Source of the DNA: Echinostoma caproni
Lineage: Eukaryota; Platyhelminthes; Trematoda; Plagiorchiida; Echinostomatidae
Direction of reading: 5' to 3'
DNA length: 64,000 bases
NCBI GenBank assembly: GCA_900618425.1
Contig: UZAN01039889.1
Coordinates: 7,260-71,259, forward strand
Positions 4,293 to 59,171 of the stretch are shown here, one piece after another (position 1 is the first letter of the stretch; each line of letters starts with the position of its first letter). The notes under the pieces were generated by a model. That model was given only the letters and a program-made list of their open reading frames with translations, did not search any database and was not told the DNA's origin. A program made the translations under genes and the position numbers.

Positions 4293-4394
4293 GGGGAAAT
4301 TAGCTTGTCCTAGCCACGATGAATGAAAACCAAAATACCAACGCATTTTGGTTTTGGTTTTCATTCGCCGTGGCCAAGACAGGCTAATTTCCTC
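4293..4394. repeat. Inverted repeat / hairpin, 43-bp arms
   Basis: The left arm 4293-4335 and right arm 4352-4394 are reverse complements with about 6 mismatches in 43 positions, separated by 16 bases. The inner part contains 'gaatgaaaaccaaaa' and its exact complement. It lies in the intron between the two RA-domain exons, about 330 bases from the nearer splice site. No coding capacity. It could be a small foldback or MITE remnant, or a structured element within the pre-mRNA. Confidence 0.85.
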
Positions 4395-7299: not shown

Positions 7300-7930
7300 G
7301 TGCACTTTGCGAAATGTTTTATTCTTGTGTTCGCAACTCAAAGACAGGATTCCTTCTTCTGCAGTCGCATTTTATGTGTACCGGTTTACGTGTTCCTGTG
7401 GAGCAACATATATCAGCCACACTAGCAGGCGCCTATCTACACGAGCTCGGGAACTTTATCCGGCTTGGCTGAACACGGGTGTGATTAAAACTATTATAGG
7501 TTCCATCGTTCCACACCTCGTCGAGTCCGAACACACATTGAGCATGATTAAAGTATTTCGGCATCTCTACTGTGTTCGGGGTCGCAGATCCAAGCCGATT
7601 AAAACTCGCATCCTAGCCACTGCAGAGGCGGTTGGAATTCTTCTACATAATCCCCCGTTGTGCGCCCAAACACGTGTTTGTGAAGTCACTCTCAATCTGC
7701 CATGGCTGGCCCTCCACCTCCCCCCCCCACTCCACCTCACTCCCGAAATCACACAATTAACACGGATCAAGCTTGAGGTCCGATGGCAGGATCAGTCATA
7801 TCCGGTTTTGTGAAATTCAAACAGAAAACAATACCAACAATCACCAGTTGAATAATCGATAATTATGCTTCCTCTTTTCTATACAAAATGACGTGATATA
7901 AAATGTGACGTATTAGCGAGTTGACGAGTC
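7300..7930 (+). pseudogene. 5'-truncated Penelope-like element, GIY-YIG endonuclease end
   Basis: The open frame from 7307 encodes KDRIPSSAVAFYVYRFTC followed by SCGATYISHTSRRLSTRAR. That is the start of the GIY-YIG endonuclease found at the C terminus of Penelope-like retroelements: two close cysteines, YI(G)-x-T, and the Arg-rich helix. The usual YIG glycine is Ser here. Downstream, HLVESEHT..IKVFR and TAEAVGILLHNPPLCAQTR match the tail of the same domain as seen in the other copies in this window. No reverse transcriptase precedes it, as expected for 5' truncation during insertion. The 3' tail near 7866-7910 ('atgcttcctc') resembles the tail of the copy at 17837, so the element probably runs to about 7930. 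It sits in the adaptor-gene intron, opposite to its transcription. Confidence 0.8.
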
Positions 7931-17079: not shown

Positions 17080-17836
17080 GTAAGTCACAAAAATTGCTCT
17101 TAGCTTCATAATTTGAATACCGCTAAGATACATGCAATGCAGGCCTCTTAAATGAATCTCTGACATACCTGCTTAGGCAAAACCATAAGAATCGTTTTAA
17201 CTGAGACAGAAAACCATCACAAATGTTACTTATCCTAAATCAGTAAACATTTTTATTTCTGTGGCTTAACAATACATTTTCTGAAAATTTAGAAAACTTA
17301 CTAAGGAAGAACGAAATATTACATAAACCTCAGGTACTACGAAGCCAGATAATATGAATATAAATAAGTATTGGTCAAACTCGTGCACCATCACTCTAAT
17401 TTCGGAAGTACATTTCAATTTCCCATATCATACTTGCATATTGATAGTTATGGATGAGATGTATTTATTCCTTACTTTATCTCCCATTTCCATATTCTCA
17501 GTTTTCTTCTACCACCACGATAAAGTTTGTAGTGGTTCAAAAGCTACAGCGCAGATTTCGAAAATGTGTTATGGAAAGCATCAGGGATATTTATTTCTTC
17601 TTATAAATGATTCCTGTTTCATGAGTGTTTATTAGGCGCATTGAACATATTCCAAATTGGACAATAGTCAGGAAAGCGGGGAGAGAGTGGGGTGGGAAAT
17701 CAAGTCCATGGCAGTTTGACTGATTGAGTAAAAAACTCTTGTGAACGTATATTGGGTTACGTAACTTGAGAAACATGGCCTCGCTAAACGCTACAATCCT
17801 GGGGTTCAAGTTATGTAATAATGGCTTGAACGATAT

Positions 17837-19580
17837 TTGTGGGTCAACAATGTGTCCTGTTGCCAAAAAGCAAAGGAGAAAACTGAAACATTCGAAAGAA
17901 CAGTTTATGCTACCTTGAAGCGATTCTGGAAGAAACGTGTGATCGACACAGACACGTTCGTTAAACTGAGACCTCGGGGTTCACACATCGCAAGAATGTA
18001 CGGATTGCGGAAATTGCACAAACCGGGGATTCCATTACGACCAATCCTATCGATGGTTAACTCTCCCCAACACAAACTTGCACAATGGTTGGCGAAGCTG
18101 ATTGCTTCAATTAGTACCAAACCGTGCAGGTTCGGACTGAAGGATATACTTCAATTAAAAGAAGCAATACGAGACGTTGATTACCGTAGTTGTTTTCTCG
18201 CCTCGTACGATATTCCTTCATTGTTCACAAATGTCCCGGTCGAGGAAGCTGCGAACGAAGTATGCAAACATGCCAGTGAGATAGGTTTCCTTGCCAGTGA
18301 TTGGAAAACCCTACTGGATTTATGCGTCTGCGACGTTTGTTTTCAGTAGAAATATCTATAAACAGGTTGATGGTGTAGCTATGGGAAGCCTTTTGGGGCC
18401 AATTCTTGCTGAAATCTTCCTGTCAACACTAGAAAACAAACTGGAAGGTGATTTGAATTCAACCTTACTTTACGAAACATGTATTATAGCATTATTTTAC
18501 AAGTTGAACTCATTGCATCCCAATATCAAACTGACATGAGAATGTAAATCGGAATCAAAACCTCCATTCCTTGACTTACTACTGAATCGAATGTCAGACG
18601 TTAAGCTACAGATATCCATGTATCAAAAGACTACATGGAAAGTACAGTATTTACACTTCAGGAGTTTCTGTCATGCGGGATACAAACGAGGTATGGTACG
18701 CACTCTATTGCATAGGGTTCGCAGACAATGTAGCCTGCAAGCCCTGTCAGATGAACTAAATCAATAGATCCGTGCTTTACTAGACAATGGTTATCCCATC
18801 GCATTCATCCACAAGTACAGCAAGCCGATCAACGCCAAGCCTATTTCCCTATCGGTTATGAAGAAAGACGTCTATATGGAACTGCCTTTCAGGGGAGATG
18901 ATGTGACCACAAGGATATCTCGACGTTTAACGCACGCCGTCGAAAGGACGTACAATGCCGCAAGACTAATGATCGTCTACGGGACGTTTCGTTGTCTCAC
19001 ACGCACTAATCTGGATCGAAAAGAGGTTAGTGTTACCTCCAACTGCATCTATTCATTTCAATGTACTTGCTGTCAGCGGTATATCGGAAGGACAGAACGT
19101 CACTTATCAAGCAGAATGTGTGAACATATTCCGAAAGAGCTTGGTCTTCGCGGAGGGAAATTACCATCTAGTGCGATTGTCCATCATTTGTTAGATTCCG
19201 GTCACCACGTAGACTCACCCAAAGCGTTTCGCGTGATTGCGAGGCCTTGAGGTTCACTTACTTTGCGATTCATAGAAGCGATAATTATTCATCGCTGGAA
19301 AGCGCAATTATGTGATCAAAAATCATTTGTGACGCAACTGTTTTTGCCGTGGTAGTGATGATATCACACCTGATACCACCCTACCACAGCATGACGTGAC
19401 ATGACCTTCCCTCCCCCTCCCTAGTTCACCACATCGTTTGGTCCAGTTCACCCCATATCCAATTTTCTCATCTTACTTGACCTCAACACATAACTAGGCA
19501 CAGATCACTCGACTCACTTGTCCAACACTTTGGTCAAATGACTCATTTCAACTCTTATGCTTCCTCGTTTCACATGATCT
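17837..19580 (+). pseudogene. Penelope-like retroelement remnant (RT + GIY-YIG), catalytically dead
   Basis: The reverse transcriptase part begins near 17880: KLRPRGSHIARMYGLRKLHK, PG, LRPILSMVNSPQHKLAQWL, then LASYDIPSLFTNVPVEEA (RT motif A region with D) and, after a frameshift near 18345, YKQVDGVAMGSLLGPILAEI (motif B). The next part should hold the Y-x-DD catalytic motif, but at about 18470-18500 the sequence runs from LLYETCIIALFY straight to KLNSLHPNIKLT, so YxDD has been lost by a small deletion. Then come PPFLDLLLNR, a linker with several stops, and at 18858-19250 the GIY-YIG endonuclease: CIYSFQCTCCQRYIGRTERH, LSSRMCEH and SGHHVDSPKAFRVIAR. A tail with 'atgcttcctc' follows near 19560. 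Single copy, 5' truncated, in the intron between 24912 and 8941. Confidence 0.88.
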
Positions 19581-19599: not shown

Positions 19600-20775
19600 C
19601 TAAATGAGAGCACGCGAAATCGATGGCCAATATCAATTCTGCCCACATATGTCTTCTACTGTTGAGAAACGTTGCACATAACCAATATGAATAAAAGTCC
19701 GGGCGGATTAGTCATTGTTTCATCATACTGCAGTCTGGAAGACGATGCATCAATTGGGAATGCGGCTAAGGTCACCTGCTATGAAGTCGTTATTGAACGG
19801 TCAACAGAGGAGAGCACGTAATGATTTTGACAACAAATTTAAATCGCACCGCCCGAACATTTGGCAATGGGTTTATCTCGGTGGTGACCAAGGAGCAATT
19901 CAACAGGCGAAGAAAGTATATCTACTAACCTAGGTCTCCAATAAATTTCGTTTTACCTGTCAAAGCAAGTAAATATCCATCCAGCCTAATGAGTTGGAAG
20001 GGAAATAAATACTACGTGCCATGTTGTTGGTTTCCTGTACACACCAATATAGATATTGTGTAATCTTTTGCATTGATAAGGTAGGGTTTCTATAACTGTT
20101 ACTCTAAAATGCATTCATGGAAGTAATATGTTTCAGAGATGAACTTTAGTATATCTTTTGGCTTGAGGTTGGTACTAGAATACGGTTAGATCTCAATTGA
20201 TATTAATTTTTTCACGTTTATGCAGTTTCTGGAGGGGTTAATTCCAAGGCTAAATTCCTTCAACTACCACCCAGTAGTTGGCGTTTGAATGTAATCTAAA
20301 ACGTGTCCTTGGGTTAGAAACAGAGATACGTTAGTTGTCCCGAGAGTGTTTCTCGGCGGTTAGGGTGGGGTATGTATTAGAAGAAACTGGTTAATTTTGT
20401 TTGGCAGTCAACGTGGTGGACTCAATGAAAAAGCGATTGCCTCTACGGCACACAAAGGAAGAGGGGCAAATAAGACATGGACGAGATGAAAGTACAATAC
20501 CTGTATCAAGTCCATAGGTCGTTTCGATAAGTGAATCCTATTCATGTTTCTCACTTTGACTTTGTTATTTTACAACTGATGCACCAGCAAATTTCACCAA
20601 AAGCGAGAAATGGTATTTTATAATGGCAATAGCATATTAATTTCCATGAATCAGGCTTGAAGCACCAAGTGCTGGGAGGAACAATTCTGATGCAACTCAG
20701 GGTGTTGGACGAGTTTGGTGAATACCTCTAGTTCACAATCTGTTTAGAGTACTTAACCACAAGTGCCTTTGAGTA
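19600..20775 (+). repeat. Dispersed repeat A, copy 2
   Basis: Same order of blocks and orientation as 1-1236. It includes the open stretch at 19715-19933 with KFKSHRPNIWQWVYL and both internal direct-repeat units (near 20460 and 20670). It lies directly behind the Penelope-like element at 17837-19580, so it could be part of that element's flank or an independent insertion. The copy at 7300 lacks it, which favours independence. No known family recognised. Confidence 0.75.
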
Positions 20776-27678: not shown

Positions 27679-29173
27679 TCCAAAACATATTGGCTCGACG
27701 GATATTAAATTGCAGTTACCGAGCTTTGAACAACAAATAAGACTGCATTGAAAATTGATTTCTCCCCTTCTACTCTATTGAGTGTTCGTCCATCAGCGCT
27801 GAAATGAGTCACTGGTATTTCTCAATTGACATCAATCATTAGTTGAATTGTCACAATTAGTCCATGCAATCTATCCACATTAAACCACTTCACTGATTAC
27901 CACAATTATGACTGAGACTAGGACTAAGTTTGCTAGAGGAGATTTCGCATCAAGGCTTATCTCAACCAACAGGTGTAATGTTGGCCCGTTCCCCCATATA
28001 CCGCTGGACGGATTTATGTGTGAGAAACCAAATTGATTTGAGTGATATATCGCTATCTGCATAACGCTAATTTGTAATAAATGTTGACGTCGAGCTCGGA
28101 TGCTCGATTGCAAGTTTAGTTTTGCAAATCCTATTAATTTTCAAGAACCAAGAGAAAGGTATCTCAGCAATTGCTAAATTTTCAAGATCAGAACGGTAAC
28201 CCAGACAACGTTCACAACCCAAAAGATGTCTTCCCCAATTAGTCTTATAATTTCTATTCAAATACATTCATCAAAACATGGCATTTGATACGCAATCTAA
28301 ATTTCCATCTTCTCCAAGTCTCAAAAGATTCTAAACCATATCGCTTTTATGAGATGCCCGGTTAAATGTTTGCTTCTCTAGTGATTTTATTTTGATCTAT
28401 TGCGGAGCAGTAATTTTCTAAATCTACTGACCGTTAGAAAGTAGTCGTTTAGTAGGTGGAACATTGTGTTGTTTGCATCAGGCGGAGCTTGTGTCATTGG
28501 CAATCATTTCTATCGCGATGCGGTTACTTTCCCACGAAGAAATGTATAGGTTATGCGGCTGAGAATATCTAGATCATATCTACTGTATTTAATGACCTAA
28601 TCTGTGTTGTTATTAACAGGTCGGTATTCAATTGTTTTAAATGTACATGTAAATGCTACATCATGACACAAATTTTAAAATGGTCTAGGTACGATCGATT
28701 CGTTTACAGGCGTCGAATGTAGTTCAGGTTGATTGTTGAAGCCGTGCACTCAGACAGCACATGGTGGCATTTGTTGTGAGCAATCCGAAAAGCAAGTGAA
28801 CTGCAAGCACTGTACAGCTGTTTTAGCAATGTTGTATATCAGCACACGTGCAAATCAGTTGGCGCAATGTGGAACGGAAACCCTGGACCTCATGTGTCGT
28901 ACGCATACTTACTAACCCTTTGTCTCTGATGGTGATGGTGGTAGTGCATGTTCTCAGTTTGAAGTTTATTTACATTCAGTACTTTGATTTCCCAAATTCA
29001 GAGTATATTTGAGGTGCGGTGTACTACATAAATCAGCATATATCAAAGTAATAATACCCACAGCATAAGAGAATAATGTTGAGCAGTCTAAGCATCATAG
29101 CCCTTGTTTTTTATTACGTCAGGGACAAATGATATCAGGAGTGTATCGAAAAGTCGATGCACCATGTGTTACT

Positions 29174-29383
29174 TTATTGTGAATGTTATAACGCTAATAA
29201 CACAGGGATATCGGTAGAGAATTATATTTGTCGATGTTTCGGTTGCCGTGGGTAACCCTTCACAAGGCAGGTTTTACAATCAAAATCTGCCTTGAGAAAA
29301 GTTACCCACGGTAACCGTAAGGTCGGAAAATATAATTCTCTACCGATATCGCTGTGTGATTAGGATTATAACATTCACAATAA
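29174..29383. repeat. Long inverted repeat (foldback element), 102-bp arms
   Basis: The left arm 29174-29275 and right arm 29282-29383 are reverse complements without indels and with about 14 mismatches in 102 positions, around a 6-base loop 'acaatc'. Conserved blocks are 'ttattgtgaatgttataa', 'gatatcggtagagaattata', 'ccgtgggtaac' and 'caaggcag'. The transcript of either strand would fold into a near-continuous 100-bp duplex. No coding capacity and no obvious target-site duplication beyond the arms. It fits a MITE or foldback transposon, or a head-to-head pair of one small element. Confidence 0.93.
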
Positions 29384-51541: not shown

Positions 51542-52589
51542 TTATGCAATTCATGCAGCGGTGGACCAGGGGCAGGAGGAGCATTCACAACACGTAATAA
51601 CGGGTGTCCACCTTATGAGATTGTCTCGTGAGTTTGACTCAGTGTCAGGTGATAAATAAGCTCAAGAAACCGCTGTTAGTTCAAATCAAAGAAGGCTTAG
51701 TGTGACTTAGTTGTAATAGTCATGAAAATGATTTATAAAAAATTGGCTATTTTGAGCAGCATCCTCGGTTAGTGGAGTAGATTGCTTTATCGTGATGAAT
51801 AAAATAACCACGAAAGGTGTAACAGTTGAGTGCGTAGGATCATCTATGGGTACCACTCAGATATAAGTGCCTGGATTATGATTCTAGTTCGTTCCTTTGA
51901 AAATCCGCGTTTTATATATACATATTTTATAAAGAATGTTTTTTTATGATTTTGTCAGCGACCTAATGCTGTAGACAACTTCGCTTCCCACAACCTCCAA
52001 GGAAATATTCTTTCTGTTACGGCCGATGCAGAGCAATAAACAGCTATTTCTTCTTGTTTGGAATTCGTCAGTTTTGCGTACAATTTGTGTCCCGATCTGA
52101 ACTCGAACAGTAAGGGTGAGAGTCAACTTCATTAACCTTGAGCCACACGACCGACAATCATCCTAAATCAATTCGGTTGTTCGTAGGCTTTCACAAATGC
52201 TTATGATCTCGAGTGTGCTCTTGTGATGTAATCCTGTGTATTCATGGTGCCTGCAAAAATTCAAATGGGGTAAGCAAACCATTGGCCATCTAAATTTTGT
52301 AAACCACTTGAAAATATATTTATGGTAGTTGTCTGAATCTATTGTCCATCGACCAACAGCTGAACATTGTTCTCACCATGATGTTTGTGTGAGTATTTTC
52401 ATACACTATTTATTTTGTACCATGATCCAGATTCGTTTTTCTCTTCCTAATCTATCTTTTGGTTGTGATAAGCCAATGGATATAACATCTCTGATTGGTT
52501 GCTCCAATCGATGGAACCTTCACGAAAACCATAATCACTGGAGTTTATCGCTAATATAATTCAGATTAAATATATTCTAGAGTCTTTTA

Positions 52590-52810
52590 AGGACCGGCTG
52601 TGGTATGTGGTGGTATGTGGCGTGTAGATAAAGCGGCCGGTTTTTTGGTGGTTNGGTGGCTCTTTGTGCTGTCTTGGCCTGGGCCCTCAGTTGGGTAGAG
52701 GGAACCGAACAGCTGATGAGACCCAATATGGTTGAAACAGCTTGTTAATGCTTCTAAGCATTCACTTCATATTTCTTTCATTTTGTGTTTAATAAAACCG
52801 CGAATAAGAA
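52590..52810 (+). repeat. GC-richer block around the ribozyme, possible retroelement copy
   Basis: From about 52590 the composition becomes G-rich ('ggtatgtggtggtatgtgg', 'gcggccggttttttggtgg') and returns to AT-rich after 52742. A small hairpin 'aatgctt..aagcatt' (52747-52762) and 'aataaaa' near 52792 follow. The block looks foreign to its neighbourhood, like a short non-autonomous element. An unresolved N lies at 52654. Confidence 0.4.
52668..52741 (+). ncRNA. Candidate hammerhead self-cleaving ribozyme
   Basis: All conserved hammerhead elements occur in the right order. Stem III 5' strand GCTGT (52668-52672) ends in the GUC triplet with C17 at 52673. Stem I opens with TTG (52674-52676) pairing CAG (52710-52712), has an internal loop, a GG/CC pair (52681-52682 with 52705-52706) and CCCTC/GAGGG (52684-52688 with 52698-52702). 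The core CTGATGA follows at 52713-52719. Stem II GACC/GGTT (52720-52723 with 52730-52733) has the loop CAATAT. Then comes GAA (52734-52736) and stem III 3' strand ACAGC (52737-52741). Cleavage is predicted after 52673. Stem III is open, so this is type III topology. An internal loop in stem I near loop II is what natural, fast hammerheads use for tertiary contacts. Activity is inferred, not shown. Confidence 0.8.
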
Positions 52811-53776
52811 CAGCCGTCCTTCAAAAAAAATTATTTCAGGGACCCCTAGTCAAGATGTAGAAAAACGTTTAGATTGACCTCTTTGAAACATAATATTGCG
52901 ATTATGTAAACCAATCGTTTATTATTATACCTTATTTTGACATATTTTTTATTTTGAAAATATTGTTGAGATCGATCAAAATCAATTCGCTGCTGTGATT
53001 CCCTGTAACTATATTTAAACTGGGTGTTGGAGTAATACGGTGTAAGTTACTCATTTCAGGATAACCACGACTCGGTCGAATCGGATCGATCAAACAAATC
53101 ATATTTTGCCCAGGTTCACAGCTTGGATAGGTATTACACTCGAAGAAACTCTCAAACAATGCATTCATTTAATATCATATTCGTTGCTTAATTGCTGCCT
53201 TGTATCTGCCTAAAACAGCTCATTACCCGAGGAATTTATCCTGATCACTACCACCAATTAGTCAGACAATGCCTCAGAGAGAAGATATTTAGAATCGTCT
53301 TACCTCAACGTTAAATCTCTAGTGATTGGGATGCGTTATTCTCTGGTTGGTGGGCAAGCCCAGTGGTCCCATATGATAAAACTATCCATCACATATAACT
53401 TCAATCACCGCGTACAAAATTGTGCAACCAACTAGTATCAGCCAAGGAACAACAAACACGAGCTTCGTGAAAAAAACAAATAAAAATTTATCCATGAAAC
53501 TTCCCACTTTGTCGTTTCATTCGGATTATGAACGGTCATTACTAAAACGTATAAAGTCTCTATGAAATCCTTCCGGTACACTCAGTCGTTCGCATGAATC
53601 ATTCAAGAGCCAATTTTAAGGTTGATAAAAGTGTTGCGATAAATCAACCGACACAAGAAACTATGCAGTAATTAGATTATCTCGACGGGTCTGATTATTA
53701 ATTGGTTCGACTATGGACTTATTGCATTGTAAAATATTACAGACGCATGACTTAGTTGGAACACCAATGAACTGAC

Positions 53777-57800: not shown

Positions 57801-58626
57801 TTATTTCATCAGAAAACACAGTCATTTACAACGCTGATGAGTTCTAACAACAATGAAACTACTGCCCGTTGCTAGTTGTCATCCAGGTCTCAGAAGAATG
57901 TCACTCAACGCAAATACTATTTAAAACGGACACAGCAAACATCGTTTTCCTGTCTCCTCGTATTACTATTCCCTGTTCTGTCAAGACACGATTGTGAAGC
58001 GATTACCCAGTCCATGTGGCTAAACCATGTTATTCTAACGTTACCATGGTTGTGTACTCATAGCTAATCATCTACGGGTTATTGCTGGTTACGGGAGAGT
58101 TTTAGCACTCTAATAAACCAAAATGTGGTCGAAAAGGTGAAGTTGCGCAGAATTTGACACCAGTGTTGCCGTCGTTCCTGAATAAGAGGATGAGGAAGCC
58201 CGGAACTGGAGAAAATTAATGGTTGAAGATTATGTGGTCAAATTAAGGACATCATGAATGGACGAGGTCAATGTGGACGAGGTTTTATCACGGATACTAA
58301 GGCCCAATAACATAGCTAGGCAAAACAGTACCTCATGTCCACATTGCGGATATCTCATTGATTAAAGAAGAAAGTTTTAACGATGCCGTTTGACTTAGTG
58401 AAACCGATTATAAGAGATACACGAATTAGATAGCTACCATTACTGCTTATCTCCAATTTAGAATAATACAAGCTTGTGCACGTTTATCCTTCCATGGATA
58501 TAATAAATAACTCAACTTGAGAACAATCTCTCTGGGTTTTGACGCTAGCATTGAATGTAGCATATGTTCCCACATAAATATTGTTAAATACCTGGACCAA
58601 TTTTTCACTTCATGCTTGTTGCTACT

Positions 58627-59143
58627 NNNNNNNNNNNNNNNNNNNNNNNNNNNNNNNNNNNNNNNNNNNNNNNNNNNNNNNNNNNNNNNNNNNNNNNNNN
58701 NNNNNNNNNNNNNNNNNNNNNNNNNNNNNNNNNNNNNNNNNNNNNNNNNNNNNNNNNNNNNNNNNNNNNNNNNNNNNNNNNNNNNNNNNNNNNNNNNNNN
58801 NNNNNNNNNNNNNNNNNNNNNNNNNNNNNNNNNNNNNNNNNNNNNNNNNNNNNNNNNNNNNNNNNNNNNNNNNNNNNNNNNNNNNNNNNNNNNNNNNNNN
58901 NNNNNNNNNNNNNNNNNNNNNNNNNNNNNNNNNNNNNNNNNNNNNNNNNNNNNNNNNNNNNNNNNNNNNNNNNNNNNNNNNNNNNNNNNNNNNNNNNNNN
59001 NNNNNNNNNNNNNNNNNNNNNNNNNNNNNNNNNNNNNNNNNNNNNNNNNNNNNNNNNNNNNNNNNNNNNNNNNNNNNNNNNNNNNNNNNNNNNNNNNNNN
59101 NNNNNNNNNNNNNNNNNNNNNNNNNNNNNNNNNNNNNNNNNNN
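58627..59143. other. Assembly gap of 517 N with duplicated edges
   Basis: The 28 bases just before the gap (58599-58626, starting 'aatttttcacttcatgcttg') are identical to the 28 bases just after it (59144-59171). This is the signature of two contig ends that overlap but were scaffolded apart. Long frames running through the N are artefacts. Confidence 0.95.
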
Positions 59144-59171
59144 AATTTTTCACTTCATGCTTGTTGCTACT

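Follow-up and report, generated by a model that had tools for sequence, protein, structure and literature searches.

The stretch of DNA analysed here, a window of 64,000 nucleotides from an Echinostoma caproni contig, raises the question of whether the hammerhead-like string at positions 52668-52741 is a functional type III ribozyme, a chance arrangement, or the remnant of something else. An earlier note had read it as a complete type III hammerhead, and the core letters are as described there, with CTGATGA at 52713-52719, GAA, and C17 at 52673. Three stems can also be drawn: a stem III of 5 bp, a stem I of 3 bp (U.G, U-A, and G-C), and a stem II of 4 bp (G.U, A-U, C-G, and C-G). We are nevertheless highly confident of another explanation, namely that the site is a mutated copy of an echinostome fluke SINE that has tRNA-type promoter boxes and, directly after this promoter, a type I hammerhead. 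A hammerhead origin was thus correctly recognized, whereas the assignment to type III was not, as pairing, covariation, and Rfam all place the family in type I.

The 426.5-Mb assembly, which includes the window contig, was searched with positions 52560-52860 as the query. The element occupies at least 40 genomic places, i.e., the window site and at least 39 other copies with 74-85% identity, dispersed over many contigs; this number is a lower bound, as 40 of 69 candidates were scored, and the 39 copies were selected by their likeness to the decayed window copy. Most of the matches cover positions 126-210 of the query, corresponding to 52685-52769. Aligned with their flanks, the copies form one element, family A, in which a promoter region is followed by the hammerhead, GGATTCGCACTG-CTGATGA-GACC-CAANCA-GGTY-GAA-ACAGCTGT-C-CAGTGC-T-TCC. 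The B box is exact in 26 of the 39 copies (1.3% of random window stretches) and the A box in 10 (4.3%), and three of the 39 gave a tRNA call. Family A is a dispersed repeat with internal Pol III A and B boxes and no ORF, and these are the characteristics of a tRNA-derived SINE. The remark on a GC-richer block resembling a short mobile element was right in substance. Tandem arrays were not seen at the loci inspected, where the units stood singly or in inverted or widely spaced pairs instead.

In family A, stem I is formed by GCACTG/CAGTGC, stem II by GACC/GGTY, and stem III by the palindromic ACAGCTGT, and the cleavage triplet is GUC. On the alignment of 40 rows, including the window, this structure was 90.0% paired in comparison to 26-41% for slid controls, and only 2 of 500 shuffles were as high. 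None of the 500 shuffles reached its covariation score (0.136 versus 0.114 for shuffles) or its number of further pair types (20 versus 14.2). The margin in covariation is modest because the shuffles ignore relatedness, and one slid control matched the count of pairs with a change on both sides (6); the contrast between type I and type III on one and the same alignment is the stronger point. Stem II of the family was paired in 96.3% of the cells, with the normally G-C pair 10.1-11.1 being G.U in 23 of the 40 rows. A stem I of at least 5 bp, a stem III of 3 bp, and an NUH triplet were found together in 14 of the 39 copies, and the other 25 failed, or could not be assigned, these criteria of an intact type I hammerhead. 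Among 20 copies that had been chosen for a better core, 18 scored above the Rfam Hammerhead_1 cut-off at the family A site; L212 had no match, and L213 had a match only elsewhere in the locus. Genome-wide, all 74 hits that were scored, out of 66,429 first-look candidates in the assembly, passed with Hammerhead_1 (best score 60.6 bits), and none of 14 control genomes responded. The SINE copies have what Rfam RF00163 describes for type I, i.e., the core CUGANGA, GAA, the A15.1-U16.1 pair, an NUH triplet, and three stems of which stem I is open, and as far as can be judged from their sequences, the family A hammerhead is of type I.

The window copy is a decayed representative of this family. The stretch that aligns to the other genomic copies spans 52685-52769 on the plus strand and is 77% identical in blastn to the family A majority sequence from which the window row had been excluded (E 1.8e-12). 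Within it, the family A type I model R2 identified a hammerhead remnant at 52701-52755 (+) with 44.5 bits (E 7.4e-9, rough calibration). The catalytic core CTGATGA (52713-52719, columns 48-54 of alignment A3), stem II with GACC/GGTT and a six-base loop (52720-52733), and the core GAA (52734-52736, columns 69-71) are intact, all on the plus strand, and with this R2 score, the core is far beyond chance. At 52737-52746 (+; columns 72-80), where the remnant of stem III and the cleavage triplet are located, the family sequence ACAGCTGT-C is altered. The sole type I reading of the window copy has GTT at 52744-52746 and no stem I, of which 0 bp remain in the gapped and 3 of 6 pairs in the gapless reading. 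Read as a type I ribozyme, the window copy is broken, its stem I and GUC being gone, and the completeness ascribed to it was wrong. Exact A and B boxes are both absent, and GCTGTC at 52668-52673 (+), the supposed 5' strand of the type III stem III with the cleavage site, lies in the eroded promoter half, where its pairing is coincidental. Because stem I and the GUC are lost, no cleavage is expected from this copy, and none after 52673; the cut that had been placed there is, by our prediction from a type I family, wrong. No Rfam match in the 64-kb window reached the cut-off, and at E <=10, a 401-base stretch gave HH9 with 14.8 bits against a cut-off of 52. Flanking repeats around the window copy are at most 5 nt long, the scanned ends not being those of the family. 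Terminal inverted repeats at 52585-52601 and 52810-52826 were considered as a sign of a DNA transposon and rejected, as 69 of 300 shuffles align equally well.

It was in principle possible that the site belongs to the genuine type III hammerheads with a long helix I, known from the toad and termite HDV-like agents and from flies, whose outline comprises a short first stem, an internal loop, and an extra hairpin of about 20 nt. The 3 bp, the 7x7 loop, and the 19-nt hairpin of the window copy do resemble the description in section 9 of PMC7936874. On the 40-row alignment, the type III structure was 68.1% paired and thereby exceeded its own slid versions (20-49%); this structure had, however, been drawn from one row of that alignment and shares stem II with type I, and 42 of 500 shuffles were as high. 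The stem III helix was paired in only 53%, with two of its inner pairs missing in 36 and 35 of the 40 rows, and the type III covariation score equaled the shuffle mean. Paralogous copies that keep the core do exist, at least 39 of them, but the type III fold is absent from all 34 that could be read; the remaining 5 of the 39 were unreadable due to mutations in the core or in GAAA. In L209 and L215, the 5-bp stem III partner is present and stem I is absent. The upstream strand, i.e., the supposed 5' strand of stem III, is unconserved in the genomic copies: 38 of the 39 matches start at 52684 or later, past 52668-52672, and one starts at 52664. Moreover, where the published motifs have a pseudoknot, loop II of the window copy can pair with the helix I internal loop over no more than 2 nt; a pairing of 4 bp with the loop of the far hairpin is present. 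In the light of these data, we consider a genuine type III ribozyme very improbable.

A descriptor of the type III motif matched once in the window and 7 times in simulated single-strand sequence totalling 2,900 Mb, which corresponds to about 3e-4 per window. Such rarity would seem to favor a type III ribozyme; this chance model is, however, not applicable to the core, because the core was inherited from the repeat. The other characteristics of the match, namely its stem length, its span of 74 nt, its wobbles at 10.1-11.1 and 1.1-2.1, and its fold at 9.4 kcal/mol above the MFE, which itself speaks against type III, were nothing unusual for chance matches, of which 400 were simulated. The 44 unique phage type III descriptor matches had spans of at most 57 and energy gaps of at most 7.5, a 3-bp stem I was present in 2 of them, and none showed either wobble, with most of these controls having been found with a pattern that demands C11.1. 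The energy gap is only supporting and not decisive, because misfolding of single units is also predicted for intact copies of the family. Taken together, the type III stems of the window copy behave like a coincidence.

Among the phage loci L008-L176 from IMG/VR are many contigs with clear hammerheads, with 82 type I and 48 type III descriptor hits. Of the latter 48, type I is the better reading for L073, and stem I has 3 bp in L120 and in one hit of L173. With a covariance model built on 17 type III ribozymes of phages, the candidate scored 30.0 bits (E 1.2e-5, again with a rough calibration), which speaks for type III; scores of 37.1-66.0 bits were reached by 31 of the 39 matches in 20 additional phage loci. 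When the filters were switched off on 10 kb, however, the full-length match to the candidate vanished and the best score was 11.8 bits. Of a set of 57 loci, 50 were scored, the 7 omitted ones holding descriptor hits, and the best scores in those 50 were 26.7 (L001) and 24.3 bits (L007, which is read as type I). The exact core had no match in viral contigs. At its cut-off, Rfam named no type III in 15 phage loci that contain 18 type III descriptor hits, and as Rfam also misses these, its null result at the window is weak evidence against type III.

A random hammerhead-like string in unique DNA would be compatible with the lack of a copy of this string within the window, the lack of an Rfam match at the cut-off, and the chance-like type III features. 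This core recurs in at least 39 further copies in the genome, which refutes a chance origin of the core and leaves this explanation with practically no probability, even less than a genuine type III ribozyme. For the type III pairing, chance is still the explanation.

In the preserved copies of the SINE, the core is conserved, the three stems show compensatory changes, promoter boxes are present, and GUC is found in most. Such copies would be transcribed by Pol III, and their RNA would have stem I as the open end, with GCACUG/CAGUGC and an outer GGA/UCC, and a stem II with a six-base loop. Cleavage is predicted after the GUC that follows ACAGCUGU. In a single unit, stem III would be very short, but ACAGCUGU is self-complementary, and a shared stem III of 8 bp can therefore form between two units of the same transcript. 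Most likely, the ribozyme acts on dimeric or tandem transcripts, from which unit-length RNA would be released that could circularize and be retrotransposed. In silico, the two-unit hammerhead fold was 2.9 and 1.3 kcal/mol above the MFE for two intact copies and 39 kcal/mol above it for the window copy, these being the three sequences tried in total. In the MFE folds of single units, core bases paired with the CAGC strand in all 34 cases, which argues against single-unit cleavage, and the mean pair probability of stem I was 0.62 for 14 family A copies and 0.24 for 20 copies of a second family. According to the portions of PMC7761336 that deal with animal type I motifs, a weak helix III often blocks self-cleavage of the monomer and not of the dimer.

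This second family, family B, is a SINE-like group formed by the best 20 of the 74 scored Hammerhead_1 hits in the genome, with a B box in 11 and an A box in 8 of the 20. Between the majority sequences of A and B, a block of 47 nt, comprising the ribozyme with stem I, aligns with 89% identity, and outside the ribozyme there are only matches of up to 10 nt; stem II differs between the families, with both of its strands changed. In 3 of the 20 loci (L236, L241, and L242), intact family B hammerheads occur in pairs of opposite orientation, about 290-330 bases apart. The window also has a decayed family B copy with a type I remnant on the minus strand at 52029-52108, about 600 bases from the site in question. 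Over the 79 nt of 52030-52108, this copy has 78% identity to the majority sequence of family B (E 1.4e-13), R2 scored 29.8 bits at 52029-52083, and Hammerhead_1 scored 20.3 bits at 52033-52077, which is under the cut-off of 34. An older decayed family A copy is located at 28803-28892 on the minus strand (72% over 89 nt in blastn, E 1.7e-6), with R2 at 22.1 bits for 28803-28857. A possible further remnant at 57822-57876 (+) is weak, with 24.4 bits for R2 and no blastn match to family A or B at E 0.05.

As A and B have different heads and only the ribozyme in common, the ribozyme may have been captured or swapped. We tentatively consider that the type I hammerhead of this fluke is a mobile cassette exchanged between SINEs with different tRNA-like heads and retained since self-cleavage aids their spread, and, equally tentatively, that this cassette covers the ribozyme of about 47 nt together with a stem III whose palindrome is suited to cleavage in dimers. 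Somewhat more doubtful still is the view that the hammerhead is a passenger that is inherited with the element and no longer used for its spread. The misfolding of single units in silico, the G.U at 10.1-11.1 in more than half of the rows, and the 25 copies outside the intact type I criteria would fit a passenger, but the compensatory changes in stem I and the conservation of the ribozyme block between two otherwise dissimilar families, with stems II changed on both strands, would not.

Several other features of the window were recorded. Frames at 17822-18349, 18768-19250, and 7301-7813 (+) resemble a Penelope-like reverse transcriptase and, by eye only, a GIY-YIG-like endonuclease; an Echinostoma caproni protein matches the reverse transcriptase frame with 65% identity over 55%. 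Another protein of this species has 98% identity to a 256-aa reading frame of the window, over 91% of that frame. Penelope-like elements elsewhere carry hammerheads, and none was found at these frames. A repeat of about 1.1 kb is present twice (53-1183 and 19664-20730), with 73% identity between the copies, one of which stands shortly after the reverse transcriptase frames. Long palindromes at 29174-29383 (84%) and 4295-4392 (80%) produce false microRNA matches under the Rfam cut-off, and an N run at 58599-59171 has the same 28-base stretch on either side, as though the edge of the assembly gap had been duplicated.

The closest known systems are the schistosome elements Sm-alpha and Sj-alpha. 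According to passages in PMC8490949 and PMC2770079, these share with the fluke SINEs a short SINE-like element with a type I hammerhead and a very short stem III, a core and stem II near the Rfam Hammerhead_1 consensus, and many decayed copies. Here, the host is an echinostome fluke with two families that have different heads; the fluke hammerhead SINEs nonetheless appear to be of the same kind as Sm-alpha, in another fluke. Metazoan non-LTR retrozymes, as excerpted from PMC7229834 and PMC7761336, likewise are small non-autonomous elements with a type I hammerhead and a weak helix III, for which cleavage is expected in dimers. In contrast to them, the fluke SINEs have tRNA-type promoter boxes and no tandem arrays at the inspected loci. 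The type III motifs of HDV-like agents, termites, and flies, as far as section-wise described in PMC7936874, have only the helix I outline in common with the window copy, whose first stem has 3 instead of 5 bp, which has no internal-loop pseudoknot, and whose type III structure is unconserved in the family. Full-text searches, with most subscription papers outside their coverage, found no report of echinostome hammerhead SINEs.

Documented hammerhead SINEs thus take the place of a type III hammerhead that had been wrongly claimed for an animal, and the case demonstrates that a decayed type I core can pass for a complete type III ribozyme. Hammerhead SINEs, which the consulted parts of the literature describe from schistosomes, are also present in many copies and in two families in an echinostome genome. 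As these two families have only the ribozyme in common, the question of why SINEs keep a self-cleaving RNA becomes testable by comparing the families.
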